64,000 nucleotides of DNA from Pyropia yezoensis (Eukaryota > Rhodophyta > Bangiophyceae > Bangiales > Bangiaceae). Positions 22,938 to 62,782 of the stretch are shown here, in pieces (positions within the stretch are counted from its first letter, which is position 1; each line of letters opens with the position of its first letter). The notes beneath the pieces were generated by a model. It ran no database searches, was not told the DNA's origin, and saw only the letters and a list, made by a program, of their open reading frames with translations. The translations under genes were made by a program, and so were the position numbers. The stretch spans positions 30,835,751 to 30,899,750 of the forward strand of contig CM020619.1 in assembly GCA_009829735.1 (NCBI GenBank), read 5' to 3'.

Positions 22938-25052
22938 CTAGGCACGCATGCTAGACTCTCCCACTCCACGGCCCTCGCCCTCACGTGGAGGCGAGCGGCG
23001 AGACCCACGCCGATAACGGTCTCCACTCGTTGGAAGGGGCGGCGGCTCCAAGTCGGAACCGTCGCGCCCTTCACGGTCGCGCAAGTGGCGCCGACCGTGG
23101 CTACTCTTCTGCCTGGTCTTGCGCGCAAGTTTGCGACGCAGAAGCTGGACAGAATCCGTCTCCGACGAGGTAGAGGACTCCGAGACGGAGTAAGACAACT
23201 CGTCTTCCGACACGGAGGGAGAGCGCCGCGAGTGTCGGCGACGACGGCGAGGAGGCGAGTATGCCCGGCTCGCGCGACGTTTGCCACGCCCAAGTGGGGC
23301 TGGCTGGGGCAGAATAGCCCCAATGCGAGCCAACTCGGCCGTCATAAACTCCGCCACCGACTCGCAACTCGCGGTCGCCACTGCAGTACGAACGCGCTCC
23401 TCAAGTTAAGGAGTCTCGGAAGTTTGAAGGGTTGCGGTCGACGCGGCCAACCAGGAAATGGTGCGCACCAACACGGTGATCATCATCTCTGAGGTTAGAG
23501 GCGTGGGCGGTAACACCAACTTGGGGTATACCGTCAGGAGGGTGGCCCCCAAGTTGGGGGACACCGGGGTGGACGACTCAACGGCCACGCTAATCGGGAT
23601 GTTCCCGTGAGGCTGGAAAGGAACAGGAGGAAGCGGAGGGGCACGCCGACGTGGCGGTACCCGGGTGTAACTGCGACCCCGACTTGGGGCCCCCGCAGTG
23701 GGTTGAGTCCTGTGGTCATCATAGGACGGCACGGCCATAACTATGGGCTTGTCCGGGGGTGGCGCAGTGTGGCGATCCACCCCCGGGACATACGGGTAGT
23801 CCCCGATGCCCAACCCCTCTCGTAGGACCACACGGCCGTCGTGAAGTTCACGAGCGACCCACACGAACTGGCGAAGCGCGCTATCGTCCTTGGGCCCACG
23901 AGTGGGGCGGCGCAACTTGTGCTCGATGCTCTCCCACTCGATAAACTTGTGGAGGCGGAGCATCTCCTCAAGTAGAGTGAGTTGTCCTAATGAGCACCTC
24001 TCAGCAACTAGCCGAGGGGTGAGCTGTTCCAAACCTTGGATGAGCCGGAGGGGGAGATGCCAGAGCATCCCCCGCCGCTGAACACAAGACACCCAGGTCG
24101 ACATGACCTCGAGGAGCCACTGGGTGGCCAACATGGCCCACACCAGGTGATGAGGGCCAGCCGTCAACATGACAGAGCCGAAGTGGTCAAGCAACCGTGG
24201 CAGCAATGCCGGGAACCCGTAGTGGAGCTCAACTTGAGGCCACCACTCGGGCTTCTTCGGATAGTACTGCTCCTTACTGGCAGCAGACTGCTGAGGAAAC
24301 TCAAGATGAGCCGGGGTCACCAAGTAGGGACCTCGCCGGAAATCCGTCTCCATCCGCACATCAATGTGATGAGTGTGCAGATCGGCCTCGTGAAGGTACG
24401 GGGGGCGAGTTGCCACCGCGTCCCAAGTAAAGGTCGGCAAGTCGCCGGGACCCGGGATAGTTCCCCCGCGGTCCACCAAGGCCTTGGCCCGCTGTACGTC
24501 GTCGACCTCCTCATCGTCCAGGAAGGCAAACTGGTCCGTCCTGAAGCCGGCAGGGAACCCGACCCTACGGGGATACTTCTCCCGTAGGCGGTCCCATACC
24601 CGACCCATCGCTGCGCCAAGTCGGCCACAGCAAAGAACAGTCAACCCCTCCTCATATAGAGGCCAAGCGGGGTAAATCCACCGCCCCAAGGCCTCACGCG
24701 GGACAACTTGTCCCGCCTCCGGGGGAGATCCCGCCGTCAACCCAAAGCCGGGTGACGCGGGAGTCCCATCCCCCGGAGCGATCGCGGAGCCCCCGCTGGA
24801 AGTCCCGGTGGGCGCTGCACCGTAGGAGGTGTCCTCCATACGTTCGTCGAGAGAGTCCGTCTCCACCCCCGGGGTCGCCATGGCTCTCCCCAAGTTGGGG
24901 AGAGACGCCCTGGCTACAGCGGCACGAGACCCGCCTCGAGTTGAGGGGGACTCGGATCGTGGGTATACGGGTGGCCTCCCCAGCGTGGGGCGGCCCAGTG
25001 GAAGGTGAAGGGGAGGTGGTGGTGATGGTGAAGTGCGAACCGGGGAGAGCAA
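22938..25052 (-). pseudogene. A1 antisense ORF (aORF-A), one internal stop
   Basis: I do not recognise the function. It reads opposite to gag-pol and converges on pol, with its stop 110 bp from the pol stop. The start at 25052 (MLSPV) is supported by the same start in A2 and A3. The frame runs 548 codons to TAA at 23406-23408, then continues open to 22938 (about 147 codons from the next ATG). In A3 the stop codon is CAA, so the intact protein would be about 704 residues. Visible parts are a Ser/Pro-rich N-terminus, a Trp- and Arg-rich central core (with FGSV, WHLP and LLEEMLRLHKF segments), a Pro-rich linker, and a basic RS-rich tail (SPPRRRRRHSRRSPS) suggesting nuclear or RNA association. 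The core resembles the family B antisense ORF. No envelope features (signal peptide or transmembrane helix) are seen. Confidence 0.82.
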
Positions 25053-27348: not shown

Positions 27349-29463
27349 TTGCTCTCCCCGGTTCGCACTTCACCATCACCACCACCTCCCCTTCACCTTC
27401 CACTGGGCCGCCCCACGCTGGGGAGGACACCCGTATACCCACGATCCGAGTCCCCCTCAACTCGAGGCGGGTCTCGTGCCGCTGTAGCCAGGGCGTCTCT
27501 CCCCAACTTGGGGAGAGCCATGGCGACCCCGGGGGTGGAGACGGACTCTCTCGACGAACGTATGGAGGACACCTCCTACGGTGCAGCGCCCACCGGGACT
27601 TCCAGCGGGGGCTCCGCGATCGCTCCGGGGGATGGGACTCCCGCGTCACCCGGCTTTGGGTTGACGGCGGGATCTCCCCCGGAGGCGGGACAAGTTGTCC
27701 CGCGTGAGGCCTTGGGGCGGTGGATTTACCCCGCTTGGCCTCTATATGAGGAGGGGTTGACTGTTCTTTGCTGTGGCCGACTTGGCGCAGCGATGGGTCG
27801 GGTATGGGACCGCCTACGGGAGAAGTATCCCCGTAGGGTCGGGTTCCCTGCCGGCTTCAGGACGGACCAGTTTGCCTTCCTGGACGATGAGGAGGTCGAC
27901 GACGTACAGCGGGCCAAGGCCTTGGTGGACCGCGGGGGAACTATCCCGGGTCCCGGCGACTTGCCGACCTTTACTTGGGACGCGGTGGCAACTCGCCCCC
28001 CGTACCTTCACGAGGCCGATCTGCACACTCATCACATTGATGTGCGGATGGAGACGGATTTCCGGCGAGGTCCCTACTTGGTGACCCCGGCTCATCTTGA
28101 GTTTCCTCAGCAGTCTGCTGCCAGTAAGGAGCAGTACTATCCGAAGAAGCCCGAGTGGTGGCCTCAAGTTGAGCTCCCCTACGGGTTCCCGGCATTGCTG
28201 CCACGGTTGCTTGACCACTTCGGCTCTGTCATGTTGACGGCTGGCCCTCATCACCTGGTGTGGGCCATGTTGGCCACCCAGTGGCTCCTCGAGGTCATGT
28301 CGACCTGGGTGTCTTGTGTTCAGCGGCGGGGGATGCTCTGGCATCTCCCCCTCCGGCTCATCCAAGGTTTGGAACAGCTCACCCCTCGGCTAGTTGCTGA
28401 GAGGTGCTCATTAGGACAACTCACTCTACTTGAGGAGATGCTCCGCCTCCACAAGTTTATCGAGTGGGAGAGCATCGAGCACAAGTTGCGCCGCCCCACT
28501 CGTGGGCCCAAGGACGATAGCGCGCTTCGCCAGTTCGTGTGGGTCGCTCGTGAACTTCACGACGGCCGTGTGGTCCTACGAGAGGGGTTGGGCATCGGGG
28601 ACTACCCGTATGTCCCGAGGGTGGATCGCCACACTGCGCCACCCCCGGACAAGCCCATAGTTATGGCCGTGCCGTCCTATGATGACCACAGGACTCAACC
28701 CACTGCGGGGGCCCCAAGTCGGGGTCGCAGTTACACCCGGGTACCGCCACGTCGGCGTGCCCCTCCGCTTCATCCTGTTCCTTTCCAGCCTCACGGGAAC
28801 ATCCCGATTAGCGTGGCCGTTGAGTCGTCCACCCCGGTGTCCCCCAACTTGGGGGCCACCCTCCTGACGGTATACCCCAAGTTGGTGTTACCGCCCACGC
28901 CTCTAACCTCAGAGATGATGATCACCGTGTTGGTGCGCACCATTTCCTGGTTGGCCGCGTCGACCGCAACCCTTCAAACTTCCGAGACTCCTTAACTTGA
29001 GGAGCGCGTTCGTACTGCAGTGGCGACCGCGAGTTGCGAGTCGGTGGCGGAGTTTATGACGGCCGAGTTGGCTCGCATTGGGGCTATTCTGCCCCAGCCA
29101 GCCCCACTTGGGCGTGGCAAACGTCGCGCGAGCCGGGCATACTCGCCTCCTCGCCGTCGTCGCCGACACTCGCGGCGCTCTCCCTCCGTGTCGGAAGACG
29201 AGTTGTCTTACTCCGTCTCGGAGTCCTCGACTCCGTCAGAGTCGGAGTCGGTCCGGCGTCTGCGTCGCCAACTTGCGCGCAAGACCAGGCAGAAGAGCAG
29301 CCGCGGTCGTCGCCACTTGCGCGACCGTGAGGGGCGCGACAGTTTCGACTTGGAGCCGCCGGCCACTCCGACTGGTGGGGAGCGTTATCGCCAGGGGTCT
29401 CGCCGCTCGCCTCCACGTGAGGGCGAGGGCCGTGGAGTTGGAGAGTCTAGCATGCATGCCTAG
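27349..29463 (+). pseudogene. A2 antisense ORF (aORF-A), one internal stop
   Basis: This is the counterpart of the A1 antisense ORF. From ATG 27349 it runs 548 codons to TAA 28993-28995 (CAA in A3), then stays open from the next base to 29463. Over the first 548 residues it differs from A1 at only about four positions. In the RS-rich tail after about 29230 the two copies diverge abruptly (many substitutions in 70 residues). The shared stop codon is therefore best explained by conversion between the arms, not by independent mutation. The central core has the FGSV, WHLP and LLEEMLRLHKF segments. Function is unknown. Confidence 0.82.
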
Positions 29464-37623: not shown

Positions 37624-39930
37624 ATGTCGGACCCCCAGGTACCCGGGGGCGAGGACGACCTCCTGCCTGAAGAGGGGGAAGAGGTGATGGTGGACGACGT
37701 TCCCGTCTCCGCCACCGCCGCCGAGTGCTTCCTAGCGAGCTCGTCGGAGGACGAGGACGACCGGGTGACCGTTCGTGTGGCCCCGGACGGCGCGCCGGGC
37801 GGGTTGTCGTCCGTGTGTAGCGGCACGACGGCTCCGTCGGGTGGCGGACAACCGCGTGCAGCGGTGGCTTCTACCGCTTCTCCTCCGGCGGCCCGGATGG
37901 CTTCTGTCGCCGGTACCGGCGTGGCTCTACCTCAAGACGGTGTCGCCGGCGTGGCGGATGGTGGTGTTGGCACCCCGTCCAGTCCGGCGGGTCCAGACGG
38001 CGCGGGTGCCCGCCCGGTTGGTTAGTCCGCTGCTGCGGGTAGCGGGTCTACCCGTGCTGCCCCCGTGGTACCCACGTCGGGTCCGGGTGGCGGCGTCGCT
38101 CTGCCCGCGGTGCCGCTGACGCGTGATGGTCAAGAGGTATCTACCCCGATGGCAGTGGACTTCGGGAGTTACTCCGGGCGGGCGCCCGCACTTCTTCTTC
38201 CTCCTCGGCCTCGGGCACCGCCGGCAACGGCCCATGTGCCGGTGGGGCATCCCCCGGCGCCCCCTATTCTTCCTGGTCCTGCCCGGGTTGCCCCGTTGGG
38301 TGGCGGCGTCGTCGTGGCGGCGGGTCAACCCGCCATGTCGATGTTCGACTTGGTGGCTCGGGTTCGAGGCCTGACTGTGCAGGAGTCGATGGAGTCCGCT
38401 GGGCGGATGTGGGTGGACTTCCACCTGCCCCATCCCCGTGGAGAATCCTCCCGGCGCGTCAGGGTGGACCCGAGTTGGGAGCGGGAGTTGGTGCGGCTGG
38501 TCAACCAGCCGAACGCGGTGCGAGTGGAACACCATTGGATCCTGAGTCAGCCGGACGACCGGCATGCGCAGCTCTGGCGCACTCGGGTGGGACGGGGTGA
38601 GGTCTACCTCGACCCCGCCTTCGGGGTATGCGACCTGATTGCCCCCGCGTTGCCGCGGGAGATTGACTACCCGGCTAGTGCTCGGGGGATTGCGGCGGCG
38701 GCGGAGCCGGTTGCGTTTGGAGAGACGGTGGGCAGTACCGGTCGGTATCCCGACTTCGATTATTACCCGGGGGTATCCCCGTATCTGTCGTTGACGGCTC
38801 CCTACCCGCCTATGGCGGGTTTGAAGTCGGCGTCGAGCTGGCGACGTAACCATGGTGTCATGGCGGATGCGTTTCGCACGGATATAACGTGTGCGTTGCA
38901 GACCGGCAACGGTCGTGCGCCGGTATACACTCCCGTGCGCCCACCGCTATGGCAGGAGGGGTGGGAACCCGCCCCTGCTTTCCGGTTTGACACCGGCTCC
39001 TGTCTCCGATACTTCGGGAGTGTGTTGGCCTCCCGGCCGGTCCACCCGTTGCAGGGTACCTTCACCCTTGAGGTTACCCTCGGGCAGGCGTCCTCCTTCT
39101 TGCTGTCCGTCCGCCGGCAGGGGCGCCTGTTTCATCTTCCGACGGGTGTCCGTCGGCACATCGCGCAGTTGGGCGTGGGCCTGACAGCTGCCAAGACCGG
39201 GTTGGCCCGGGAGTTCAAGGCCCTGCTGGCTGTTCACGATGCCGTGAACTGGGCTGGGGTGTTGGCCCTTCCCCCGTACCGGGACCCGCAGGCTGGGGCT
39301 TCCCCATTGCCTCGTCACTCGATGCGTATCCGGCGTACTCAGCCGGGTGAGCCTCGTTGCCATGGGTGGGCGTCCACCGAGGCCGTTCCTGACCTGGGTA
39401 TTCCCATGGTTATCCATGACCCTCTTCAGGTCCTTGCCCCGTGGATCGGTAACCCGATACCGGCGGCGGTTGGCCGTCGTCCCCGAGAGTGGGGCTCTGT
39501 GGGTGGGGAGCGTGAGGTGTCCCGTCGTCGGGCGGAGCCCCGCCGTGGTTACGGTGGAGCCCCTTCGGTAGGGTCCTACCGAGCCTCGTATCAGGTGCCA
39601 CCGGCTCCGGTGGTAGCCGTGTCGGCTCCTGTGGCTCCTCTGGCTGCGCCAGTGTCACCTTCCGCCCCTGTCCTACATGACGGGGGTCCCCGTCTCTGGT
39701 ATGAGGGCGTTGACGCCCTTCTTGCCCGCGCAATGCGGGAGGGTCTCTCTGTTAGCTGGGGGGATATCCCCCCAGGTGCTGCGCTGGTTGGGTCAGCGCG
39801 TTGCGTCGGTGGTGTGCTTGACCGCCTCCAGAAAGCTCTGGAGGACGTGGAGGCTGGCCGCAGCACCCTCGTCCAGCTATGCACCGAGGTCACTCGGGTG
39901 ATTGACTGTCGTGAGATTGCCGACCGGTGA
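37624..39930 (+). pseudogene. B2 antisense ORF (aORF-B), one internal stop
   Basis: This is the counterpart of the B1 antisense ORF, opposite to B2 gag-pol. An ATG at 37624 gives MSDPQV, matching MSYPQV in B1. The same frame is also open and similar upstream to about 37378. TAG at 38023-38025 interrupts it, after which 38065-39930 is uninterrupted. The N-terminal part is acidic and Ser/Pro-rich. The core (about 38330-39290) is conserved with B1 almost residue for residue, including VEHHWILSQPDD, PYLSLTAPYPP, YFGSV and FHLP segments, and the C-terminus repeats a LWYEGVDAL segment. Function is unknown. Confidence 0.82.
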
Positions 39931-40973: not shown

Positions 40974-41336
40974 TGTAGCAATATGGTTGTCCGTATTGTG
41001 ACCCTAATATCAGGGGGGCTACTTCAAACCCTTAACTTTCAATTTGATAGTTCGTACTGGTCACGGTATCTATAAGTTACGTATGACCAGAGGGACTTGC
41101 ATCTTGGGGTGGAGGGTAGTTAGTAGTGTCTCCGAGGGTTTATAACGAGGGGGCCGGTGGCGAATCCACCGCCGGCCAAGGTAGAACAACAAACCCCTCC
41201 CATTTGGGCTCCCATCTTGGTCCCGTGGCTTGCGCTCCAAGGACAGCAACCTTGGCCTCCCGGTGACGTTGGTGCCGATCCCCCTTGGTGAGTGTTCCCT
41301 GAGAGTGGACGTGCGACGGATTCCTATTGTGCTACA
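40974..41336 (+). repeat. B1 5' LTR
   Basis: The 363-bp LTR runs TGTAGCAATATGG to GTGCTACA. A TATAA-like box in GGTTTATAACG (about 41138-41148) is followed by a stem of GCCGGTGG with CCGCCGGC, which keeps pairing through one G:U. Confidence 0.94.
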
Positions 41337-41355: not shown

Positions 41356-41560
41356 CGGGTTTCCGTCACCCGTGTGGTGACGCCGTCTTCGCCCCTGGCA
41401 CACGGATAGGGATCTGGTCCTTTTCTTGTACTCGTGGTGTTGCGACCTGATCGATTGTGTTGAGTTTTTACCTTTGACTGTGATCTACTGTACTCTCCCC
41501 AATCTACCCCCTCGCTCTCTTGTTCGTGGTGATTGATACGTCGGTTGACTGATTGTGACC

Positions 41561-43744
41561 ATGTCTACCCAAGAGACGGGGAACGTTCAAGATGACGGAT
41601 CGGCGTCGACGCCGACCCCGGAGGTGACTACGGGAACCGGGATCGGGAACCCGATCGATAACATTGAGACGCCAATGCTTTCCGGTGCCGGATCGACGTT
41701 TGGCACGGCTCGGACGGCAGGAGGCGGGGGCCCGCCTCAACTGTCGTCGACCGACCTCACTCCGCCGCCTCCTTCACCAGGGGATTCCCTGATGGCATCA
41801 TTGGCCCGCATCGAGGCCCGGTTTTCCGGGCTCGACGCCCGTCAAGATCGGACGGAGGACGCAATGGCAGTGTTGATGTCAACACGGCACACGACGGGAC
41901 CCCGTCGTGTTCCTCCCACACCGGTACGGTTCGAACCGGCCGGACTACTTTCGGAGTCCACCAGGGTCAACCCCGGTGTTGCTACTCCTGAACAACCCCC
42001 GGACACAATGGGGTATGGGTCCGACTCGTCGGCAGAGTTGGAACGGAGTCACACGGAGCGATACGCTCGGAGCACCCGAAGCGGACTCCGCGGACACGAC
42101 CCGGCGGATACGTACGCCGGGGGAGAGTCGGTTATTGGGGGAGGAGGTACCCTCTCGCAGTACCCCCACGACGAAGGAGGCCAGGCAACTCGGGTTCCCG
42201 AGGTGCCGACGCCTGAAGTACCATCTTCAGTGGTGGAAGCTATGACCGCGCAGGTAACTGCGAGCCTACTGAAGCGGATGGAGTCCGATGAGTTCGCTCA
42301 TCAACTGGCTAAGCGACTGGATATCCAGGACGCTGACACGGAGATCGTCAACGAGGTCTTCCGGTCGGTTCTTACTCCGGAACGTTATCGTTTGGAGGAC
42401 CGCTCTACCACCGTATCGGAATCGATGCGTAATACGTCGCATCGGGCGATCCGCTCTATGCAGACCCTTATGAAGGGAGTCCCTATGTTCGGGGGGCCGA
42501 ACGGACGCCCGTTGGCAGTCATCGGCTTCTTGACCAGCTTCAAGGCAGCCGCAGACAAGGCGCTCGTTAACGAGGGGCTGGCCCTGGAGATCCTCCCGTT
42601 CTTTGTTGATGAACGGGTGCGAGGCATCCTTCGCCAGGCATCCCCGATGCCGGGAATGAGGGTCGCGGCCACCCCCATGGATTACCGTGGGATATTGAAG
42701 GAGCTGCTTAGCAGCTACCTCAGTGAGGACAAGTGCGGGGACCACTATCGGGCCCTTCGCACTGCCACCGCCCAGTCCTGGGAGGATGAGGAGATGTTTG
42801 GACGCCGGATCCAAGAGCTCGACTACGAGCTGGGGAAGCTCCTCGGAGAAGGGGAGCTACGGGCCATCCTGTTCGCAGGAGTACCCAACTACGTGCGGAT
42901 ATCCGCACGGGGCGCCAACACGGCACGGACGAACTTCAGTCGACTGATGCATATGTGCAAGTCCCTAGTGGACGCTAACCGGGTTCTACACCCGGAGTGT
43001 GCCTTGGCCCCGAAGCCCAAGGGTGAGGGAGGCAAGCCCAGTCTTACCCCGCTACCGAGGCAAGAGAAGGTGGAACGTAAGGCCGCACCAGTACTGGTGG
43101 CGACCGAACATACCCCTATTGGTGAGGGTGACCCTCTAGTCGACCAACAGGGCCACCTGTTGCTACCGGCGACGCCGGTGATTGATGAACATGGTACGGT
43201 AGCGTACATCGCCCCGGCTGGAACCCAGTTCCAGGTCAACGAAGGAACGGGACGGCGCGTCCCGTATGTGCGGACTACGGGGTACTCCCCGGTGACGGGT
43301 AACCCTCACCAACCCTTGCCAACATGGGCGGTGCGCACGGAGGCACCCCCGCAGATTGCGGGCCGACCCAACCGGTTGGGGGAGTCCATGTTCCGGTTGA
43401 CCCAAGGACCCAAGGCCTACCAGGGAGCAGGCACTCGGGCGCCCGAGGGAGGCAACCGTAGCTACGGGGCTACCCCGATGCGACCTCAAGGGGGGACCGG
43501 CACGTCCGGATGTATGTTGTGTGGGGATCCCCAGCACTGGGTGTCTTCCTGCCCACTCATCCCCGAGGAGTCTCGGCGGGCAGCGGCGCAACGCAAGGCA
43601 TCCACCGGGGGGTATCCCCCCCGAGCACCCGGACCCGCACCGGGTAGGCAGCCAGCTCCAGGTGGAGTACTGGCCGTCGAGGGGGCACCTCCTCAGCCGG
43701 ATGTCCCGGCGGACAGCACCCTACCAAGGGCGGGAAACGAGTAA
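41561..43744 (+). CDS. B1 Gag
   Basis: This is the structural protein of the element particle, 727 residues from ATG 41561 (an in-frame GTG six bases upstream is not needed). The start is supported by B2 (57658). The N-terminal 200 residues are Thr/Pro/Ser-rich. A capsid-like helical region follows (about residues 220-480, with RPLAVIGFLTSFKAA and DKCGDHYRALR segments). A linker leads to one zinc knuckle C-X2-C-X4-H-X4-C at about 649-664 (CMLCGDPQHWVSSC), expected to bind element RNA. The ORF ends at TAA 43742-43744, with the slippery heptamer G GGA AAC two codons earlier. B2 has two stops in this gene. Confidence 0.92.
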   Translation: MSTQETGNVQDDGSASTPTPEVTTGTGIGNPIDNIETPMLSGAGSTFGTARTAGGGGPPQLSSTDLTPPPPSPGDSLMASLARIEARFSGLDARQDRTEDAMAVLMSTRHTTGPRRVPPTPVRFEPAGLLSESTRVNPGVATPEQPPDTMGYGSDSSAELERSHTERYARSTRSGLRGHDPADTYAGGESVIGGGGTLSQYPHDEGGQATRVPEVPTPEVPSSVVEAMTAQVTASLLKRMESDEFAHQLAKRLDIQDADTEIVNEVFRSVLTPERYRLEDRSTTVSESMRNTSHRAIRSMQTLMKGVPMFGGPNGRPLAVIGFLTSFKAAADKALVNEGLALEILPFFVDERVRGILRQASPMPGMRVAATPMDYRGILKELLSSYLSEDKCGDHYRALRTATAQSWEDEEMFGRRIQELDYELGKLLGEGELRAILFAGVPNYVRISARGANTARTNFSRLMHMCKSLVDANRVLHPECALAPKPKGEGGKPSLTPLPRQEKVERKAAPVLVATEHTPIGEGDPLVDQQGHLLLPATPVIDEHGTVAYIAPAGTQFQVNEGTGRRVPYVRTTGYSPVTGNPHQPLPTWAVRTEAPPQIAGRPNRLGESMFRLTQGPKAYQGAGTRAPEGGNRSYGATPMRPQGGTGTSGCMLCGDPQHWVSSCPLIPEESRRAAAQRKASTGGYPPRAPGPAPGRQPAPGGVLAVEGAPPQPDVPADSTLPRAGNE
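43732..43738 (+). promoter_or_regulatory. Putative -1 ribosomal frameshift site, gag-pol (B1)
   Basis: The gag codons read GCG GGA AAC GAG TAA, so G GGA AAC is in the frame required for a -1 slip. The -1 frame is open from 43648 through the gag stop into pol. TGACC (43752-43756) can pair with GGTCA (about 43771-43775). The spacing to that stem is longer than usual, so the stimulatory structure is uncertain. Confidence 0.7.
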
Positions 43745-46700
43745 GAGGAAGGATGACCGGGGGGCGCTGGGGTCACCCAAGCAAGCCACCCCTGAGTACC
43801 GCGGGGAAAGCCCCACGGAGAGCGCGGTTGAGCCGACGCCGCATCAACCCCCGGGTACACCTTCCGGCCCCGACGACACGGCGTCAGGGGATTGATGACC
43901 AACCTCCAAGGTTGGGAGGAGAGGACGGGAAGCCCCTTCACGTTGAACCAGACAAGGGCCCTGTTCAGGATGCCCGAGCTACACCGGATATCGGTGTAGG
44001 ACATGTGTTGTTTACCTTGGAGAACTTCAAGGTATCAGCCACACTGGGGGTTGACCCCCAGTCGACACGATCGTACTACCCTGTACTGGACACAGGGGCT
44101 GGACCCAACCTTATCCGGAAGGATACCCTCCCGGACAAGTGGCTTCCACGAGTCAGAGTGACTCGGGGACCCACCATCAAGGACGCGAATGGTCGACTCA
44201 TTCGTACGACCGCAGCGATGTCGCTGCAGGTTACCATCGGGGATCTCACCACGGAAGTTGACTTCCTGGTATGTGAAACGCTATCGGTGCCCTGCATACT
44301 GGGGTGCACCTTCATCAACGTTCACGTTGATGCAATCCGGCCAGGCCGGAGGACCGTCGAGCTTCAAGAAGCCGACGGGACGAAGCGAGGACACACGGCT
44401 ATCGTCAGGGACCTGACGCTACAAGGAAGCCACGTTAACGTGGCTGAGGTGTACGCAAGCGTCGAGCCGAAGACACTTCGGTTGGCCAAGCGAACTCGCT
44501 TTGAGCCGTTGTCAGAGACAGTCCTCCCGGTTAACTGCGACCTCGCAGGCATCTGCAGAGTCCAGTCCAACCTACGGACGTACAAGCGCCATGGGTTGAC
44601 CATGGCCAACGGTCTCATAGACCTCCCAGCAAAGGGGTCGTCCCTCCTAGTGATGGCGAACTACCGCCGTAAGGCAGTCACCCTCCCGAAGGGATCTATC
44701 CTCGGGATTGCCGAACTCTACGAAGGAGATATCCTTACCCCTGATAAAGAAGGTCAAGTGGAACCACTTGAAGTACTGGCGGTCGCCGAGACCACCGAGC
44801 GGCAGCAACCCGATGACGGGAAGCCTAACCCATCGGCGGCTCCGGCGGACCTGCCGCCAAAGGACCAAGAGGCCTTGAAGGCACTGGCCGAGGCTGACCT
44901 CGACCACGTTCCCCCTTCGGTAGCCGAAGGGGTACGACGGATGCTAAGAAAGCATGACGTTATGTGGACAGGCGGGGCCTTGGGTACCATTGGGGCAACC
45001 CAACATCGTATAGACCTGGTACCAGGCGCACGACCCGCCCGCTCACAACCGCACCGAGCGGGACCTATGCAACGAGAGATCGTTGATGGAGAAGTGAAGA
45101 GGATGAGTGAAGCTAAGGTGATCCGACCTTCGATGTCGGAATGGGGTGCCCCAGTCGTTATTGTGCCGAAGAAGGATCAAACCCCTCGGTTTTGCATCGA
45201 TTATCGACGCCTCAACTTGGTTACCAAGAAGGACTCATACCCTTTACCAAGGATGGATGAATGCATCGACTCCCTGGGGGAGGCTACGGTGTTTACCACC
45301 ATCGACTGCAATGCCGGATACTGGCAGATCCCGGTGGCGGACGAGGATATCCCCAAGACGGCATTCGTCTGTCACAGTGGAGTGTACGAGTTCCTAAGGA
45401 TGCCCTTCGGATTGTCCAACGCCCCCGCTACATTCCAGCGGGCTATCGACATCATACTGTCGGGGGTGAAGTGGCGTAACTGCCTAGTGTACCTCGATGA
45501 CGTCATCGTCTTCTCGCGTAACATGGATGACCATGTACAACATGTTGACGAGGTACTCACCCTCTTGAGGAACGCCGGGGTAACCCTGCGTCTGAAGAAG
45601 TGCGCCTTCATCCAGCAGACGGTCGAATATCTGGGCCACCAGATAACCCCCGGTAAACTAGGGGTACTCGAAGCCAATACCCGGGCACTCCGGGATGCCC
45701 GGTTCCCTAACACCCAGACGCAGCTCAAGAGCTTCCTGGGAATGTGCAATGTATACCGACGGTTCGTCAAGGACTTCGCTCGGATAGCTAAACCGTTAAC
45801 GGTTCTTACGAGCAGTACCTTACCCAAGGTACTCCAACCCCCTTCGCCTAGCGAAGAGGAGGCATTCGAGTCGCTGAAGCGAGCCCTACTAGCCCCACCC
45901 GTCCTTGCGTTACCGCATAGACGGGGTACCTTCGTCATCGATGTCGATGCGTGTGATACACAAGTGGGATGCACCCTGTTACAGGGAGAGACGTTGATCG
46001 GTACCGATAACGTTATCCCGGACCTACGTCCGGTAGGGTACTTCAGCCGGACACTCAACCCAGCTGAGCGTAACTATAGTGCCACCGAGCGTGAGTGCCT
46101 CGGAGTTATATGGGCAGTGCAACTGCTCCGCCCATACCTGGAGGGCTCTAGGTTCATCGTGAGGTCCGACCACGAACCCCTACGATGGCTCCTCAACCTT
46201 GGTGACAAGGATTCCGATAGCCATGGGAGGCTAGCCCGATGGAGGCTGAAGATGGCCGAGCACGACTACCGCACGGTGTATAAGGCTGGGTCAACCCACC
46301 ACCTCGGAGTCGCGTTGTGTCGACTCGACACCCCGAGCGGGGATACCCGCCCGGTGGACGAGGACATCCCGGTGGTACCGGTGTGCATGGTAGGTAATGC
46401 TACCCAGGGTATGGCTGACCATACCATGGCACACCTTGCGTGCCCATTGACCCTCGCGGACTTCCGCGAGGCACAGGCCAACGACGATGACTGTAGACGT
46501 CATCGTGCTAACCTCCTGGCCGGTACGGCCGGCATCTTCTCCGAGAACGAAGACGGACTCATATTCCGGCGGGCACCCGCCGATGGACGACATCAAGTCG
46601 TGGTTCCCGTGTCCTTACGGCAAGCCGTCATGGAACGAGAACATGAGAACCCTACAGCCGGACACCCGGGGGGTTCACGTATGTTCGCAGCAATGCGAAG

Positions 46701-47919
46701 GTTCTTCTACTGGCCAGCAATGGCCGTCGACGTGGTCGACCACGTAAAGGGATGCCACCCCTGTGCACGTAACCGCATGAGTCTGCATAGGCAGGCGTCT
46801 GCCATGAAACTGTTCCCACCTGATGGGCCCAACGAGCAGGTCGCTATCGACATACTCGGGCCACTTCCGGTAACGGAAGAAGGGAACAGGTACATCCTGG
46901 TCATGTCTGACCGATTCACCAAGCTGTCACGAGCGGCAGCCATCCCGAATGATACGGCATACACGATTATGAACGCAGTGGTTGACCACTGGATCAGTGC
47001 ATACGGAGTCATGAAGCAACTCCTCTCCGATAACGGAGCAAACCTTACGTCGGCATTCTGCACTAAGGTCCTGGGCATGTTCGGTATCGAACCACGTCGG
47101 GCATCCGACTACCACCCGCAGTCCAACGGGCAGGTGGAGCGGTTCAACCGCACCATCGTCAAGATGCTACAGTGCTACGTGGCAGAGCACACGAACACTT
47201 GGGACAGGCTTCTGTCCGTACTCACCCTGGCATACAATGCCAGGCCACATCGGAGTACCACCATCGCCCCACTGGAATGGGTCATGCCACTAGGCGTCGG
47301 TAACCTGACGCTGCCGCCAGGCAGGTGCACTCGGTATGATACACCGAAGGGCCGACCCGCCGAACGCATCCACCTAGCTTGGTTGGCCAAGCTATCGTGG
47401 ATGATTCCTAAGCTCAAGGGTGCCCTTGACAGAACACAACTTCGATACAAGAGGAACTTCGACGCCCGACTACGGGTGCGCAACGCAACCCTGGTAACAG
47501 GTGACTGGGTCTATATCAGACACCAGAAGTTCCGAGGGAACAAGCTTATGCAACCGGTCAAGGGACCGTACCAGATCCTCCACAGAGATGACCACTCTGT
47601 TATCTTACACTCCGATACGGAGATCCAACGCATCAGTATGAATGATGTCACACCTGCTCCGAAGCCGGAACAGCCTCAGCCGGTACCGGCTGGGTTGCTA
47701 CATGAAGCTCTTACAACCCACCGGTCGGATGACCCGGTGGGACCGGATGGGATTCCATACCAAGTAGAGAGCGTGGTCGGACACACCGACCCGGACATAC
47801 CAGGACCCTGGTACGTCAAGGTTATGTGGGTCGGATACGACTCACCCACCTGGGATCAGGCGGCGAATATACCCCGCCAACTACTCATGCCTTACATGAG
47901 GCGACGACGCCTACTGTAA
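43739..47919 (+). CDS. B1 Pol polyprotein (PR-RT-RH-IN-chromodomain)
   Basis: This is an intact polyprotein for replication and integration, probably made as Gag-Pol by -1 frameshift. An ATG at 43753 would give 1388 residues. Counting from that ATG, aspartic protease DTGAG is at about 112. Reverse transcriptase has YLDD at about 578, preceded by FCIDYRRLN and PFGLSNAPATFQRA. RNase H is at about 728 (VIDVDACD) with DHEPLRWLL. The integrase H-H-C-C finger is at about 963-1005, with catalytic D at about 1032 (IDILGPLP), D at about 1093 (SDNGAN) and E at about 1126 (GQVERF). GPY is at about 1270 and a chromodomain at about 1335-1385 (YVKVMWVGYDSPTW). A chromodomain suggests targeting to modified chromatin, and insertion into other elements fits that. 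The domains place it in the chromovirus branch of Ty3/gypsy. Confidence 0.96.
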
Positions 47920-47965
47920 CAACCCAACCGACACCGACTTCGGCTGTTGGGGGGTGAGGCTTATA

Positions 47966-48086
47966 CCTACTAAGTAGGGTGTGACATGGTTAAAGCAGAC
48001 TTAGGTTTCTAAGTCAAATCAGACTTAGGTTTCTAAGTCGAACCAGGCTTAGGTAACTAAGTAGAGCTAAGCTTAGGTAACTAAGT
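47966..48086. repeat. Cluster of short palindromes between pol and antisense ORF (B1)
   Basis: CCTACTAAGTAGG (47967-47979) is followed by GACTTAGGTTTCTAAGTC twice (47998-48015 and 48022-48039) and by GCTTAGGTAACTAAGT-type units (about 48047-48062 and 48071-48086). The units lie about 24 bp apart in the gap between pol and the converging antisense ORF. They may end both transcripts or bind a protein. Confidence 0.78.
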
Positions 48087-48399
48087 AAAACCTGAACCTT
48101 AAAAAGGTAACTTAAAGGTAAAGGCTAACTCCGATAATATCGAAGTAACTAGGAGGCTTACACGGGAGGATGACCTCCCAAAGCCAAGACACAAAGTGAG
48201 GGAGGATAACCTCCCCAAGCATGAACCAACCGGAAGAAGTAGGACGGGAGGCAAGGCACCACTGAGCCAGAAGGGGTACTCCCCAGGGCAGCAAACAGAG
48301 GCAAGCAATGCCCCCAGCGGGGGATGAGTTTATACTCACTACTACCCGGCTACCATAAGGGTTGCCGGGGCCCTCTCCCTCACAAACAAATAGCACTCC
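48087..48399. other. Spacer between palindromes and antisense ORF in B1
   Basis: About 310 bp, conserved in B2 (about 39931-40300), with TTAACTTAAAGG-type AT-rich sequence and repeated AGCCAAGACACAAAGTGAGGG-like and TGACCTCCC/TAACCTCCC segments. No ORF is supported. It is probably the 3' untranslated region of the antisense transcript. Confidence 0.5.
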
Positions 48400-51129
48400 T
48401 CAGTGGGTAGACCCACTGCCCGAGGGAGGCCACTCACGCGTAAGCGCGTATACCTCCGTGCTCCACCGGTCGGCAATGTCACGACGGTCGACCACCCGAG
48501 TAACCTCGGTGCATAGCTGGACGAGGGTGCTGCGGCCAGCCTCCACGTCCTCCAGAGCTTTCTGGAGGCGGTCCAGCACGCCACCAAAGCAACGCGCTGA
48601 CCCAACCAGCGCAGCACCTGGGGGGATATCCCCCCAGCTAACAGAGAGACCCCCACGCATTGCGCGGGTAACAAGGGCGTCAACGCCTTCATACCAGAGA
48701 CGGGGACCCCCGTCATGTAGGACAGGGGCGGGAGGTGACACTGGCGCAGCCAGAGGAGCCACAGGAGCCGACACGGCTACCACCGGAGCCGGTGGCACCT
48801 GATACGAGGCCCGGTAGGACCCTACCGAAGGGGCTCCACCGTAACCACGGCGGGGCTCCGCCCGACGACGGGACACCTCACGCTCCCCACCCACAGAGCC
48901 CCACTCTCGGGGACGACGGCCAACCGCCGCCGGCATCGGGTTACCTAACCACGGAGCAAGGACCTGAAGAGGGTCATGGATAACCATGGGAATACCCAGG
49001 TCAGGAACGGCCTCGGTGGACGCCCACCCATGGCAACTAGGCTCACCCGGCTGAGTACGCCGGACACGCAACGAGTGACGAGGCAAGGGGGAAGCCCCAG
49101 CCTGCGGGTCCCGGTACGGGGGAAGGGCCAACACCCCAGCCCAGTTCACGGCATCGTGAACAGCCAGCAGGGCCTTGAACTCCCGGGCCAACCCGGTCTT
49201 GGCAGCTGTCAGGCCCACGCCCAACTGCGCGATGTGCCGACGGACACCCGTCGGAAGATGAAACAGGCGCCCCTGCCGGCGGACGGACAGCAAGAAGGAG
49301 GACGCCTGCCCGAGGGTAACCTCAAGGGTGAAGGTACCCTGCAGCGGGTGGACCGGCCGGGAGGCCAACACACTCCCGAAGTATCGGAGGCAGGAGCCGG
49401 TGTCAAACCGGAAAGCAGGGGCGGGTTCCCACCCCTCCTGCCATAGCGGCGGGCGCACGGGAGTGTATACCGGCGCACGACCGTTGCCGGTCTGCAACGC
49501 ACACGTTATATCCGTGCGAAACGCATCCGCCATGACACCATGGTTACGTCGCCAGCTCGACGCCGACTTCAAACCCGCCATAGGCGGGTAGGGAGCCGTC
49601 AACGACAGATACGGGGATACCCCCGGGTAATAATCGAAGTCGGGATACCGACCGGTACTGCCCACCGTCTCTCCAAACGCAACCGGCTCCGCCGCCGCCG
49701 CAATCCCCCGAGCACTAGCCGGGTAGTCAATCTCCCGCGGCAACGCGGGGGCAATCAAGTCGCAGACCCCGAAGTTGGGGTCGAGGTAGACCTCACCCCG
49801 TCCCACCCGGGTGCGCCAGAGCTGCGCATGCCGGTCGTCCGGCTGACTCAGGATCCAATGGTGTTCCACCCGGACCGCGTTCGGCTGGTTGACCAGCCGC
49901 ACCAACTCCCGCTCCCAGCACGGGTCCACCTTGACGCGCCGGGAGGATTCTCCACGGGGATGCACCAGGTGGAAGTCCACCCGCATACGCCCATCGGACT
50001 CCATCGACTCTTGCACCGTGAGGCCTCTAACCCGAGCCACCAAGTCGGACACCGACATGGCGGGTTGACCCGCCGCCACGGCGACGCCGCCACCCAACGG
50101 GGCAACCCGGGCAGGACCAGGAAGAATCGGGGGCGCCGGGGGACGCACCACCGGCAGAGGGGCCGACGTCGGAGATGGACGAGGCCGAGGAGGAAGAAGA
50201 AGGGCGGGCGCCCGCCCGGAGTAACTCCCGGTGTCAACCGCCATGGGAGAAGGAGCGTCTTGACCTCTCGACACCCGCGGCACCGCAGGTACGGCACCGG
50301 CGCCGGCACCACCCGTCGGCGTAGCCCCCGCCTCGGAAGGGGAAGGCACTTGGACAGCCTCCGGAGCCGGAGCCCCGGCCGTGCGGACACCCGCACCGTC
50401 TTGACCCGCCGCACCGGGTGTCGCACCGCCACCACCACCCGCGTCAACGTCGGGACCGCCTCGAGGAGTCACCGCCCGGACACCCGGACCACCTTGACCA
50501 GCCGGAGTCGGCTGCGGGTCGCGACCTCCGCCGCAGGGCGGACCATCTTGGGGTACCTGCGGTGAGCCGGCACCGGCACCAGGCCCCATCCGGGCAGCCG
50601 GCAGAGAGGGGGTAGAAGCCGCCACGCGCGGTTGACCGCCGGGTTGACCTCCGGCCGACGGCACCGTCGTGCCGCTGCACACGGACGACAGTCCTCCGGC
50701 CGACAGACGGACGGACACCGCAGGCCCGTCGTCGTCAGACGAGCTCACCCCGTAACGCGCGGCGTCGGGACCGACAGGCGCGTCGTCCTCCATCTCCTCC
50801 CCGATCAGGAGGTCTTCCTCCTCTTCAAGCACCTGGGGATAGGACATGATAACGGGTGCGGAGTCCCCCGCGCCCACAAGCCGTCGACGGCTACAACCCG
50901 GTACAGTGGGATAACCGGGACGAGCCAGGGAAGCGCGGACACCCGCGCTTATGACCACAAACGGCCACGAGAAGCGCCGCAGGCACGCGGGTCGACCCGC
51001 GCCCCACGGGGCTACGACCGCGCTCCACCCAGGCACCTGGGCGGGACGGGGCCACACCCACACACGGGGTAAGTAAGGGGGGTCACCCCCAACCGCCCCC
51101 ACGCAACGCGGGCAGCCCCCGCCCCCCAC
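48400..51129 (-). CDS. B1 antisense ORF (aORF-B), intact, unknown function
   Basis: I do not recognise this family. The ORF converges on pol and is uninterrupted for 909 codons from 51129. An ATG at 50847 (MSYPQV) aligns with the B2 start at 37624 and is a likely alternative, giving 815 residues. N-terminal third: acidic stretch (EEEEDL), then Gly/Pro/Ala-rich low complexity. Middle and C-terminal parts: a folded-looking core with FDLVARVRGLTVQES, VEHHWILSQPDD, YYPGVSPYLSL, LRYFGSV, RRQGRLFHLP and FKALLAVHDAVNW segments, then a Pro-rich linker and a short C-terminal LWYEGVDALV helix region. The FGSV and HLP part aligns with the family A antisense ORF at the same relative place. No signal peptide or membrane helix is apparent, so an envelope role is unlikely. 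Transcription from near the 3' LTR is inferred. Confidence 0.82.
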   Translation of the reverse strand: MGGGGCPRCVGAVGGDPPYLPRVWVWPRPAQVPGWSAVVAPWGAGRPACLRRFSWPFVVISAGVRASLARPGYPTVPGCSRRRLVGAGDSAPVIMSYPQVLEEEEDLLIGEEMEDDAPVGPDAARYGVSSSDDDGPAVSVRLSAGGLSSVCSGTTVPSAGGQPGGQPRVAASTPSLPAARMGPGAGAGSPQVPQDGPPCGGGRDPQPTPAGQGGPGVRAVTPRGGPDVDAGGGGGATPGAAGQDGAGVRTAGAPAPEAVQVPSPSEAGATPTGGAGAGAVPAVPRVSRGQDAPSPMAVDTGSYSGRAPALLLPPRPRPSPTSAPLPVVRPPAPPILPGPARVAPLGGGVAVAAGQPAMSVSDLVARVRGLTVQESMESDGRMRVDFHLVHPRGESSRRVKVDPCWERELVRLVNQPNAVRVEHHWILSQPDDRHAQLWRTRVGRGEVYLDPNFGVCDLIAPALPREIDYPASARGIAAAAEPVAFGETVGSTGRYPDFDYYPGVSPYLSLTAPYPPMAGLKSASSWRRNHGVMADAFRTDITCALQTGNGRAPVYTPVRPPLWQEGWEPAPAFRFDTGSCLRYFGSVLASRPVHPLQGTFTLEVTLGQASSFLLSVRRQGRLFHLPTGVRRHIAQLGVGLTAAKTGLAREFKALLAVHDAVNWAGVLALPPYRDPQAGASPLPRHSLRVRRTQPGEPSCHGWASTEAVPDLGIPMVIHDPLQVLAPWLGNPMPAAVGRRPREWGSVGGEREVSRRRAEPRRGYGGAPSVGSYRASYQVPPAPVVAVSAPVAPLAAPVSPPAPVLHDGGPRLWYEGVDALVTRAMRGGLSVSWGDIPPGAALVGSARCFGGVLDRLQKALEDVEAGRSTLVQLCTEVTRVVDRRDIADRWSTEVYALTREWPPSGSGSTH

Positions 51130-51419
51130 TCAATCGTCCACACGAGAGGGGCCCCCCTACCACCAGGCACCTGGTGGCGGATCCGCTTGCACCACCCCTC
51201 GGAAAGGGGGGTCGTGAACAAGAACCCGCATCGGGAAATTAACGGTCCGGAAAACGGATCGTGTGTGTACCACACAAAGGGGGGCACCCCCCTCGGACAA
51301 CCTCGAAAAGGGGTGTCTGTCGCGACGGGGCGCAAAGCCCCACCCGACGGGTAAACAGTCACGCGACCCACTTACATTCGGTAACCCGAATGCAACTCGA
51401 CCCGAGGACGGGCCGAATC

Positions 51420-51432
51420 TAAGGGGGGGATA
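51420..51432 (+). other. Polypurine tract of B1
   Basis: TAAGGGGGGGATA immediately precedes the 3' LTR start TGTAGCA. The same tract precedes the B2 3' LTR on the minus strand. Confidence 0.75.
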
Positions 51433-51795
51433 TGTAGCAATATGGTTGTCCGTATTGTGACCCTAATATCAGGGGGGCTACTTCTAACCCTTAACTTTCA
51501 ATTTGATAGTTCGTACTGGTCACGGTATCTATAAGTTACGTATGACCAGAGGGACTTGCATCTTGGGGTGGAGGGTAGTTAGTAGTGTCTCCGAGGGTTT
51601 ATAACGAGGGGGCCGGTGGCGAATCCACCGCCGGCCAAGGTAGAACAACAAACCCCTCCCATTTGGGCTCCCATCTTGGTCCCGTGGCTTGCGCTCCAAG
51701 GACAGCAACCTTGGCCTCCCGGTGACGTTGGTGCCTATCCCCCTTGGTGAGTGTTCCCTGAGAGTGGACGTGCGACGGATTCCTATTGTGCTACA
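51433..51795 (+). repeat. B1 3' LTR
   Basis: The 363-bp LTR differs from the 5' LTR at two sites by eye (CTTCTAACC vs CTTCAAACC, and GTGCCTATC vs GTGCCGATC). It is followed by the target duplication CACCC. Confidence 0.95.
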
Positions 51796-54700: not shown

Positions 54701-55466
54701 TCTCCGACAACGGCTCGAAGCGAGTTCGCTTGGCCAACCGAAGTGTCTTCGGCTCGACACTTGCGTACACCTCAGCCACGTTAACGTGGCTCCCTTGTAG
54801 CGTCAGGTCCCTGACGATAGCCGTGTGTCCTCGCTTCGTCCCGTCGGCTTCTTGAAGCTCGACGGTCCTCCGGCCTGGCCGGATTGCATCCACGTGAACG
54901 TTGATGAAGGTGCACCCCAGTATGCAGGGCACAGATAGGGTCTCACACACCAGGAAGTCAAGTTCCGTAGTGAGTTCCCCGATGGTAGCCCGCAGCGACA
55001 TCGCTGCGGTCGTACGAATGAGGCGACCATTCGCGTCCTTGATGGTGGGTCCCCGAGTCACTCTGACTCGCGGAAGCCACTTGTCCGGGAGGGTATCCTT
55101 CCGGATAAGGTTGGGTCCAGCCCCTGTATCTAATACAGGGTAGTACGATCGTGTCGACTGGGGGTCAACCCCCAGTGTGGCTGATACCTTGAAGTTCTCC
55201 AAGGTAAACAGCACATGTCCTACACCGATATCCGGTGTTCCTCGGGCATCCTGGACAGGGCCCTTGGCTGGTTCAACGTGACAGGGCATCCCGTCCTCTC
55301 CTCCCAACCTTGGAGGTTGGTCATCAATCCCCTGACGCCGTGTCGTCGGGGCCGGAAGGTGTACCCGGGGATTGATGCGGCGTCGGCTCAACCGCGCTCT
55401 CCGTGGGGCTTTCCCCGCGGTACTCCGGGGTGGCTTGCTTGGGTTACCCCAGCGCCCCCCGGTCAT
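51796..55466 (-). pseudogene. B2 pol, N-terminal and central piece
   Basis: Reading right to left: protease (DTGAG, near 55130), RT with YLDD (near 53733) and RNase H in one frame from 55466. A one-base insertion near 53005 (GATTTTCG instead of GATTCCG) then shifts the frame. RNase H end, zinc finger and integrase core continue from 53020 to 51791. There B1 interrupts after KLKG, and the rest lies at 40472-40973. RT has IECNAGYWQ where B1 has IDCNAGYWQ. Confidence 0.92.
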
Positions 55467-55474
55467 CCTTCCTC

Positions 55475-57882: not shown

Positions 57883-57883
57883 A

Positions 57884-60613: not shown

Positions 60614-62782
60614 CTAGGCATGCATGCTAGACTCTCCAACTCCACGGCCCTCGCCCTCACGTGGAGGCGAGCGGCGAGACCCACGCCGATAACGTTCCCT
60701 ACCCGATGGCGGGGGCGGCGGCTCCAAGTCGGAACCGTCGCGCCCCTCACGGTCGCGCAAGTGGCGACGACCGCGGCTACATTTCTGCTTGGTCTTGCGC
60801 GCAAGTTGGCGACGCAGACGCTGGACCGACTCTGTCTCCGACGGGGTAGAGGACTCCGAGACGGAATAAGACAACTCGTCTTCCGACACGGAGGGAGACC
60901 GCCGCAAGTGGCGGCGACGACGGCGAGGAGGCGAATATACCTGACTCACTTGACGCTTGCCACGTCCAAGTGGGTCTGGCTGGGGCACAATTGACCCAAT
61001 ACGAGCCAACTCGGTCGTCATAAACTCCGCCACCGACTCGCAACTCGCGGTCGCCACAACAGTACGAACGCGCTCCTTAAGTTGAGGAGTCTCGGAAACC
61101 TGAAGGGTTGCAGTCGACGCGGCCAACAAAGAAATGGTGCGCACGAACGTGGTGATCATCACCTCTGAAGTCGCGGGCGTGGCCGGAAAAACCGACTTGA
61201 TATAGACCGTCAGGAGGGTGGCCCCCAAGTTGGGGGACACCGGGGTGAACGACTCAATGGCAACGCTGATCGGGATGTCCCCGTGCGGTTGGAAAGGGAC
61301 AGGAGGAAGCGGAGGGGCTCGCCGAGTTGGCGGAGCCCGAGAGTAATTGCGACCCCTACTCGGGGCCCCCGCAGTGGGTTGAGTCATGTTGTCATCGTGA
61401 GAGGGCACGGCCATCAAGATGGCCTTGTCCGGGGGAAGCGCAGTGTGGCGATCCACCCCCGGGGCATACGGGTAGTCCCCAATGCCCAACCGCTCTCGGA
61501 GTTCCACACGGCCGTCGTGAAGCTCACGACCGACCCAGACGAACTGGCGAAGTGCGCCATCGTCCTTGGGCCCGCGGGAGAAGCAGCGCAACTTGTGCTC
61601 AATGCTCTCCCAAACGATGAGCTTATGAAGACGCAGCATCTCCTCAAGTAGAGTGAGTTGTCCTGATGAGCACCCCTCAGCAACTAGCTTAGGGCTGAGC
61701 TGTTCCAAATCTTGGATAAGCCGGGGGGCGAGATGCCAGAGCATCCCCCGCCGCTGAAAACAAGACACCCACGTCGACATGACCTGGTGGAGCCACTGGG
61801 TTGCCAACATGGCGAACAACAGGTGGTCCGGGCTGGCCGTCAACATGACGGAGCCGAAGTGACCGAGCAACCGTGGAAGTAAAGCCAGAAACCCGTAGGG
61901 GACCTCAACTTGAGGCCACCACTCGGACTTCTTAGGATAGTACTCCTCCTTGCTAGCAGCGGACTGCTGCGGAAACTCGAGTTGAGCCGCGGTCTCCAAG
62001 TAGGGAGCACAGCGGATTGCTGCGGAAACTCAAGTTGAGCCGAGGTCTCCAAGTAGAGACCTCGACGGAAGTCCTTCTCCATCCGCACATCAAAGTGATG
62101 AGTGTGCGGATCGACGTCGAGAAGGTACGGGGGGCGAGTTGCTACCGCGTCCCAAGTGAAGGCCGGCACGTCGGCGGTGCCCGGGATAGTACCCCCACAG
62201 TCCACCATGGCCTTGGCCCGCTGCACGTCCTCGACCTTGTCCTCATCCAGGAAGGCAAACTGGTCCGTCCTGAAGTCGGGAGGAAACCCGACCCTACGGG
62301 GATACTTCTCCCGTAGGCGGTCCCATACACGACTCATCGCTGTGCCAGTTCGTCCACAGCGGAGAACAGTCAAAACCCTCCTCATACAGAGGCCAAGCGG
62401 GGTAAAACCACCGCCCCAAGGCCTCCAGTGAAATATCGCGGCCCGTCTCCGGGAAAGATTCCGCCGCCAACCCAAAGCCGGGTAATGCGGGAGTCCCATC
62501 CCCCGGAGCGATCGCGGAGCCCCCGCCGGAAGTCCCGGCGGGCGCTGCATCATAGGACGTGTCCTTCATACGCCCGTCCAGAGAGTCAGTCTCCACCCCC
62601 GGAGTCACGGTGGCTCTCCCCAAGTGAGGGAGAGACGACCTGGTTGCAATTCCACGAGACCCACCTCGGGTTGAGGAGGGCTCGGATCGCGGGTAGATGG
62701 GTGGCCTCCCCAGCGTGGGGCAGCCCAGTGTAAGGTAAAGAGGATGTGTTGGTCGTGAAGAGGTGAGTACTGATAAGAGCAA
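60614..62782 (-). pseudogene. A3 antisense ORF (aORF-A), frameshifted; lacks the stop seen in A1 and A2
   Basis: Start ATG 62782 corresponds to 25052 in A1. The first part (62782-62294) ends at a shift near 62370, the middle is in another frame to about 61990, and 61999-60614 is one open frame through the core and RS-rich tail. A 53-bp tandem duplication (units starting 61958 and 62011) causes one of the shifts. Here the codon that is TAA in A1 and A2 is CAA, showing that the 548- and 147-residue pieces belong to one protein. Confidence 0.82.

Follow-up and report, generated by a model that had tools for sequence, protein, structure and literature searches.

Antisense accessory genes have been described mostly in the long terminal repeat (LTR) retrotransposons of plants and without a known function, at least in the parts of the two accounts available to us (PMC7264820, PMC11963269). 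These additional open reading frames (ORFs), known as aORF-3R, include that of the Retand lineage, with its TRP28 domain (PF04195), gene23 of maize Grande, and that of rice RIRE2, and the Grande protein is described as nuclear and as expressed from a promoter of its own (PMC7264820, PMC11963269, both in part). Outside plants, the fungal element Boty has an antisense ORF between pol and the 3' LTR (PMC7264820), and HBZ and APH-2 of the human T-cell leukemia viruses HTLV-1 and HTLV-2 are antisense genes of retroelements that encode nuclear regulators (PMC11963269); both are likened here by description only, from the available parts of these sources. In the present work we analyze a comparable gene in the red alga Pyropia yezoensis, a species in which repeats make up nearly half of the genome and LTR elements predominate, according to the part of the genome report available (PMC7423979). 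The DNA analyzed, hereafter the window, is a stretch of 64,000 nucleotides (assembly GCA_009829735.1, contig CM020619.1, positions 30,835,751 to 30,899,750 of the forward strand), which holds copies of two families of Ty3/gypsy elements, here called A and B. We regard it as almost certain that both families carry a real antisense gene and that the A and B versions are homologous, and as very probable that in family B this gene is built from two cassettes, diverged versions of which have been exchanged between elements with nearly the same backbone.

The antisense frame of the B element lies between pol and the 3' LTR on the strand opposite gag-pol, and the A frames occupy the same slot, as a first-pass annotation of this DNA had stated and as the element layout confirms. 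Slot and orientation are thus those of the plant aORF-3R genes, and in the algal as in the plant genes, as far as the available parts of the plant accounts go, there are no envelope features and no assigned activity. The differences lie in the algal host, in the two-cassette mosaic of the B gene, and, relative to Retand, in the protein family, none of the scanned A and B proteins matching the hidden Markov model (HMM) of the TRP28 domain. As a lineage, Retand is described, in the portion of the source available, as a non-chromovirus, and A has a weak chromodomain match. By analogy, the algal gene would most likely resemble the antisense ORFs of Retand and Grande in encoding a trans-acting accessory protein, albeit one of a different family. 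If red algal elements hold, at this position and on this strand, a protein family with no relation to the plant ones that can be detected, the arrangement would be either recurrent or very old, and its role would be worth pursuing. In the literature searched, which was covered in part and with most subscription journals outside it, none of the titles listed dealt with antisense ORFs of retrotransposons from red algae. The features of the window are as follows.

48400..51129, minus strand: stop-free antisense frame of the B element, type N1-C1, 909 codons
48400..50847, minus strand: likely antisense coding sequence, 815 amino acids from the ATG at 50847 (starts compared by eye)
50200..50847, minus strand: N module, an acidic start followed by a long linker rich in P, G, A and S; diverged in the older window copy and in locus L060
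48370..50190, minus strand: C module, comprising the conserved core, a linker and C-terminal helices; diverged in eight B2 loci
49132..49767, minus strand: core segment alignable to the antisense protein of family A, frame residues 455-666
37624..39930, plus strand: antisense frame (type N2-C1) in the older B copy, with one stop at codon 134
22938..25052, minus strand: A-family antisense frame, copy 1, with one internal stop and a likely ATG at 24881
27349..29463, plus strand: A-family antisense frame, copy 2, with one internal stop
60614..62782, minus strand: A-family antisense frame, copy 3, with four stops in the N part and 471 codons open from 62029
40974..41336, plus strand: 5' LTR of the B element, from repeat comparison
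41555..43744, plus strand: gag of the B element, assigned by position, with a zinc-knuckle match below threshold only
43753..47919, plus strand: pol of the B element, with protease, reverse transcriptase (RT), RNase H and integrase
47920..48399, no strand: spacer from pol to the antisense stop, containing a tandem array of four 24-bp units and two GGGAGG-N4-CCTCCC palindromes
51433..51795, plus strand: 3' LTR of the B element, from repeat comparison

The 909 codons of the stop-free frame, whose length the first-pass annotation had already remarked upon, compare with a longest frame of 444 codons in 300 order-2 Markov resamplings of 48001-51432. The further claim that all five named window copies carry the long ORF holds in a restricted form: only one of the five is uninterrupted, the two good A copies having one stop each with 568 codons open ahead of it, and it is at the level of the family, among best-scoring copies, that the frame is open. 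In searches of the 107.48 Mb P. yezoensis assembly, the part matched by a 548-residue query was free of stops in 75 of 79 scored A copies, most of whose frames have 724 codons; among the 50 scored B copies, 47 had a stop-free match. The scored copies were the best-scoring 79 of 3354 A candidates and the best-scoring 50 of 36776 B candidates, so that these counts are biased toward intact copies. Judged from these copies, the antisense frame is open at family level. The plant aORF-3R genes are kept in most copies and across species, according to the available parts of their descriptions. The ends of the frame differ from those of the gene, which likely starts at the ATG at 50847, where the motif MSYPQV...EDLL...MED begins; similar starts were recognized by eye in the older window copy, in L060, and in gene models of P. 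vietnamensis, and the start of the A protein, MATPGV...LDERMED, bears a looser likeness to it, also by eye.

The homology of the two versions is apparent at the level of single sequences as well as of profiles. BLASTP of the B1 (L051) against the A (L011) antisense protein aligns 230 columns at 24% identity with a score of 54.3 bits (E 1.6e-11), compared with 32.7 bits for the best of 1000 residue shuffles and with 26.9 bits across 16 residues (E 0.004) for a reversed-A control, and HHalign of the A and B antisense profiles gives a probability of 85% (E 6.5e-6). When all 36 frame pairs were compared in each of four sequence pairs, strong matches were confined to antisense against antisense, the best other pair reaching E 0.044. 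Other pairs of A and B representatives matched more weakly (E 1e-7 and 3e-7, and with B2 8.5e-8 and 1.8e-6), and in the same test the P. vietnamensis models P0002 and P0004, the latter partial, reached E 4e-8 and 0.001. The ancestral shared gene that had been proposed is supported by these matches. The families are well separated elsewhere, with no BLASTP match between the two gag proteins at E 0.05 and about 39% identity in pol. That the antisense proteins are less alike than pol is better explained by an old common origin and a higher rate of evolution of this protein than by recent transfer. The common segments listed in the first reading (FGSV, R-G-x-L-x-HLP, and a helix ending near (I/N)W) are indeed collinear within the roughly 230 aligned columns; FGSV itself is not invariant, reading FSSV in L048 and YGSV in P0002. 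An origin of the antisense gene as a duplicated gag or pol was considered and set aside, with no BLASTP match to gag or pol proteins at E 0.05.

Further red algal relatives, for which a search had been suggested, are present among the gene models of P. vietnamensis, which are predictions and no proof of expression: 11 of the 15 proteins matched by a joint alignment are relatives, and P0002 is 50-53% identical to genome copies across most of its length. A P0012-type family occurs at two places at 99% without stops; relative to B1-type copies, its last 154 pol codons are 77% identical and its antisense protein about 55%, so that both have diverged, the antisense protein faster. In a separate observation made by eye, the model P0016 (MMPV_000838) begins within the N portion of an antisense protein of B type and continues into A-type gag-like sequence, which suggests that an A element was inserted into a B antisense gene in P. 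vietnamensis.

The pattern of substitution is that of a protein-coding gene. Over 840 aligned codons, B1 (L051) and B2 (L048) differ at 156, 125 and 279 first, second and third positions, with a ratio of nonsynonymous to synonymous rates (dN/dS) of 0.35 overall and 0.26 in the 306-codon core; successive 100-codon windows give 0.74, 0.51, 0.48, 0.25, 0.23, 0.25, 0.39 and 0.25, the first of which lies mostly ahead of the ATG. The remaining five frames of this alignment contain 7-27 stops per sequence, and one of them also has a ratio of 0.5, which is to be expected where the variable sites fall on third codon positions of that frame. In family A, L011 compared with the two good window copies and with a piece of the third gives 0.20, 0.22 and 0.32. 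Young copies agree in their pooled position counts, 72/60/145 for seven B1 loci against L051 and 59/31/307 for 13 A loci against L011, and alignment gaps within the gene are multiples of three. With 0.20-0.35, against 0.12-0.19 for pol, the antisense gene is conserved in the manner of other element proteins, if less so in the N module, and the plant genes are reported, in the source as available, to be so too. The possibility that the frame is a mere shadow of a gene on the other strand, which the first-pass annotation had named as a potential refutation, is rejected. Over the stretch of the sense ORF at 49447-50565 (372 codons), the sense frame shows a dN/dS of 1.25 and is broken by four stops in L048, a B2 copy, compared with 0.34 and no stop for the antisense frame. 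As far as substitutions can tell, the antisense frame codes for a protein under purifying selection.

Within family B, the antisense gene is very probably a mosaic of two modules, N and C. This exchange was missed by the first-pass annotation and is new here, with no parallel in those parts of the antisense-ORF literature that were examined (PMC7264820, PMC11963269). In 150-nt bins against the window element, seven B2 loci, including L053, are 87-97% identical in the C-terminal part of pol, 65-83% over a block from about 48370 to 50180, and 82-99% from there to the LTR. The synonymous divergence (dS) of L048 from B1 is 0.72-0.73 in the C module and 0.16 in the N module, and for pol it amounts to 0.11 in the 998 codons of piece L062 and to 0.21 in 358 codons. 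The converse type is represented by the older window copy and L060, which in 100-nt bins match the window element at 85-100% in the C module and at 59-85% in the N module (about 50200 to 50880), the dS of L060 from B1 being 0.73 in N and 0.13 in C. The older copy averages 95% identity to B1 over 40974-47422, with a minimum of 87% (42 bins of 150 nt), and the swapped backgrounds are otherwise about 90-97% identical. Because the C2 loci and the N2 copies each diverge in one module, N and C vary independently. In L048, L043 and L047 the diverged block reaches some 20-50 nt past the stop codon, and the inner junction falls near 50175-50250. Among 31 B loci profiled, eight are of type C2 and one (L060) of type N2, counts that carry no frequencies, as the loci were picked with different queries. 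L040 was profiled in this set only. In endogenous retroviruses, env, which like the algal gene follows pol and precedes the 3' LTR, passes as a unit from one element to another on backbones that are otherwise alike; the algal gene differs in being antisense and not an envelope gene. With edges near the start and stop codons, the cassettes provide a natural comparison of which half goes with copy number, silencing, and expression, and in nori such a comparison by N and C type is measurable with RNA and methylation data.

The composition of the protein gives some further orientation. Net charges are +11 (B1 frame), +14 (A), and -3 (B2 frame); basic clusters are present in B1, and the tail of the A protein is rich in arginine and serine. 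We take the algal protein to be larger than HBZ. Neither Pfam, PHROGs, nor PDB sequences yielded a convincing match (best E 0.014, 0.23 and 0.35, respectively, and 1.5 in a second PDB sequence search); the hits to DUF6214 (E 0.014, in 2 of 16 alignment members), DUF7119 (E 0.18), and colicin E3 chains (PDB sequences, E 0.35) were judged to be due to chance. PF04195 was absent from an hmmscan to E 10 of five proteins and the 16 members of alignment A5, a scan in which most matches with E above about 0.1 are removed by the filters of HMMER; a TRP28 search of the alga's own genome gave zero matches, as did control genomes, and the spacing of conserved TRP28 residues, as given in the available part of its description (PMC11963269), occurs in none of 19 antisense proteins. 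A distant relation to TRP28 may nonetheless exist, the test having had the sensitivity of HMM searches without a profile comparison to TRP28 sequences. AlphaFold models of the core from alignments A5 and A6 agree in helix order over the shared part, an agreement that is not independent because both alignments contained both families.

The account that we favor, at somewhat less than an even chance, is that of an accessory gene whose trans-acting nuclear product is assembled from exchanged modules and has a host partner. The gene belongs to two Ty3/gypsy lineages and would be transcribed in the direction opposite to gag-pol, starting on the 3' side of the element. Its modules may have been exchanged when reverse transcription switched templates, by copy-choice, among co-packaged RNAs. 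As for the protein, it would consist of an acidic, probably disordered arm, a helical core, a linker, and helices at the C terminus, to which A adds a basic, SR-rich tail, and would act in trans in the nucleus on the expression or silencing of the element, mainly through a host factor. Setting, purifying selection, and the plant parallels, above all Grande, favor a nuclear trans-acting accessory protein; a host partner is preferred over a target within the element because the modules change on LTRs and sampled pol that remain nearly unchanged. Taken by itself, the nuclear, host-facing regulatory action is likewise put at less than an even chance. Doubtful, in our estimation, is the further extension in which the halves of a two-part host-facing protein circulate between element lineages, so that one backbone would show the host different versions, in an antisense diversification system older than the split of A and B.

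Several observations weigh against the favored account. The lack of a convincing domain match and core models with mean pLDDT values of only 41.3 and 34.7, which are unreliable, mean that there is no direct pointer to a molecular activity, and the charge of -3 together with weaker basic clusters disfavors nucleic-acid binding by B2. The codons give no sign of an arms race, as dN/dS stays below 1. Constraint is weaker in the N module (dN/dS 0.42-0.50) and between B1 and L060 at residues 223-400 (0.70). As to the exchange, only two events are resolved; the stop-side edge of L053 lies further inside the gene than in the other B2 loci, and a start-side edge, about 30-65 nt past the start codon, is seen in the older window copy only. 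Identity also drops in the older copy and in L048 over a small part of the leader (51060-51140), and in the spacer of L060 (62-73% at 48000-48300), and a restriction of the exchange to the antisense gene is not proven because the B2 data lack gag. In A, moreover, L011, L020 and L034 show an even profile against window copy 1, at 90-98% in 200-nt bins.

The spacer between pol and the antisense stop bears on the alternatives. In B it contains up to four 24-bp units, each with a CTTAG-N4-CTAAG palindrome, in tandem arrays at 47992-48092 and 40304-40395; the motif has eight matches in the window, all exact with one mismatch allowed, against 0.83 expected, and at least one exact match in 27 of 63 loci, none of 30 A loci being among them. 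The number of repeats differs between copies, B1 and B2 have the repeats in common, and their spacer bins are mostly 90-96% identical. In A, only about 110 nt separate pol from the antisense stop, and the motif was found neither in the A part of the window nor in the 30 A loci, nor as an exact match in the P0012-type piece L063. The fold of the spacer RNA beats 100 shuffles (z -3.6 and -3.3), three of 49 hand-written pairs change on both sides, all in the diverged row L060, and Rfam gave no match up to E 0.1; a DNA palindrome and an RNA hairpin are here indistinguishable. The repeats could be a cis site for the antisense protein or for another one.

Such a site would suit a protein of the VANC type, namely a sequence-specific DNA-binding anti-silencing factor that targets the palindromic repeats between pol and its own gene. 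VANC of the Arabidopsis VANDAL elements is also an element-encoded accessory protein, whose targets are often tandem repeats that vary between related elements, as the B repeats do (PMC5735166, in part), although VANDAL elements are another class of transposon and the comparison is by description. We nevertheless consider this alternative distinctly unlikely, as B1 and B2 share the repeats despite different C modules, the motif was not found in A or, exactly, in L063, and no known DNA-binding domain was found. The abundance of short perfect hairpins in the B spacer and coding regions, which are possible binding targets, and the arginine/serine-rich tail in A could also be read as signs of a structural or chaperone component of the particle, acting with Gag in packaging, dimerization, or transport of element RNA. 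This, too, seems rather unlikely to us: a Gag or RNA partner should covary with the modules, and pol and LTR hardly change while these differ (the gag of B2 was not seen), and the B2 frame carries a negative net charge.

A different kind of alternative concerns the history of the gene. Given cassette exchange, histories other than strictly vertical inheritance are conceivable, and diverged gene versions on nearly the same backbone within B lend some credit to the view that the similarity of A and B stems from an old cassette transfer between lineages. We deem this improbable, as antisense identity lies below that of pol with no sign of a late transfer, and as antisense protein and C-terminal pol have both diverged in the P0012-type family. 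Antisense transcripts could feed a double-stranded RNA control, as for plant elements in the available part of the source (PMC7264820), and GC-rich DNA may hold chance open frames; purifying selection on the amino acids of the antisense frame with none on the overlapping sense ORF, relatives in another species, and a length far beyond that of resampled sequence make a non-coding RNA or chance frame very hard to credit. An envelope-like gene, for which the position between pol and the 3' LTR would speak, is the least credible of all, given the opposite strand and best 19-residue hydropathy values of 1.37 (B1), 1.23 (A), and 1.67 (B2, at residue 281 in the linker); the earlier statement that envelope features are absent agrees with orientation and hydropathy profile, no signal-peptide or topology program having been applied.

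Hairpins are not confined to the spacer. Counted as perfect arms of at least 7 and loops of at most 8, with 100 synonymous-codon permutations as control, there are in B gag and pol (41555-47919) 30 in pol against 3.0 +/- 1.7 and 17 in gag against 2.4 +/- 1.5, 11 in the antisense gene against 2.4, 19 and 6 in pieces of the older copy (53001-57670) against 1.8 and 1.2, and 3-6 in A pieces against about 1; two stretches of the window outside the elements show no clear excess. Inverted repeats stand near the module edges at 48345-48369 and at 50202-50217, the latter a perfect 16-bp GC palindrome at the module junction and a possible template-switch point. Local hairpins as a cause of the junctions proved uninformative, such repeats being dense across the whole B element.

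The B element itself spans 40974-51795 and is of Ty3/gypsy type, with the order protease-RT-RNase H-integrase, LTRs on both sides that are identical over their first 300 nt, and gag, pol, and the antisense frame between them. The label chromovirus given to both families is weakly founded: the chromodomain match of A reaches 20.8 bits in the ORF and 23.8 bits in a C-terminal piece, under the Pfam cut-off of 25.1, and Pfam gave no chromodomain match in the B element proteins. Repeat coordinates place this young element within an older B copy, split by it into 36670-40973 and 51796-58246 and in turn nested within an A copy, and two further A copies face each other at about 16.6-25.7 kb and 26.7-35.8 kb. 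Elsewhere in the genome, at C2:9880067-9892399, four matches follow one another at an exact spacing of 3489 bp; the three that were fetched (L044-L046) consist of a B antisense gene and LTR head to tail with no adjacent pol and with 843 codons open, although the genome search counted one TAG per copy in the matched part.

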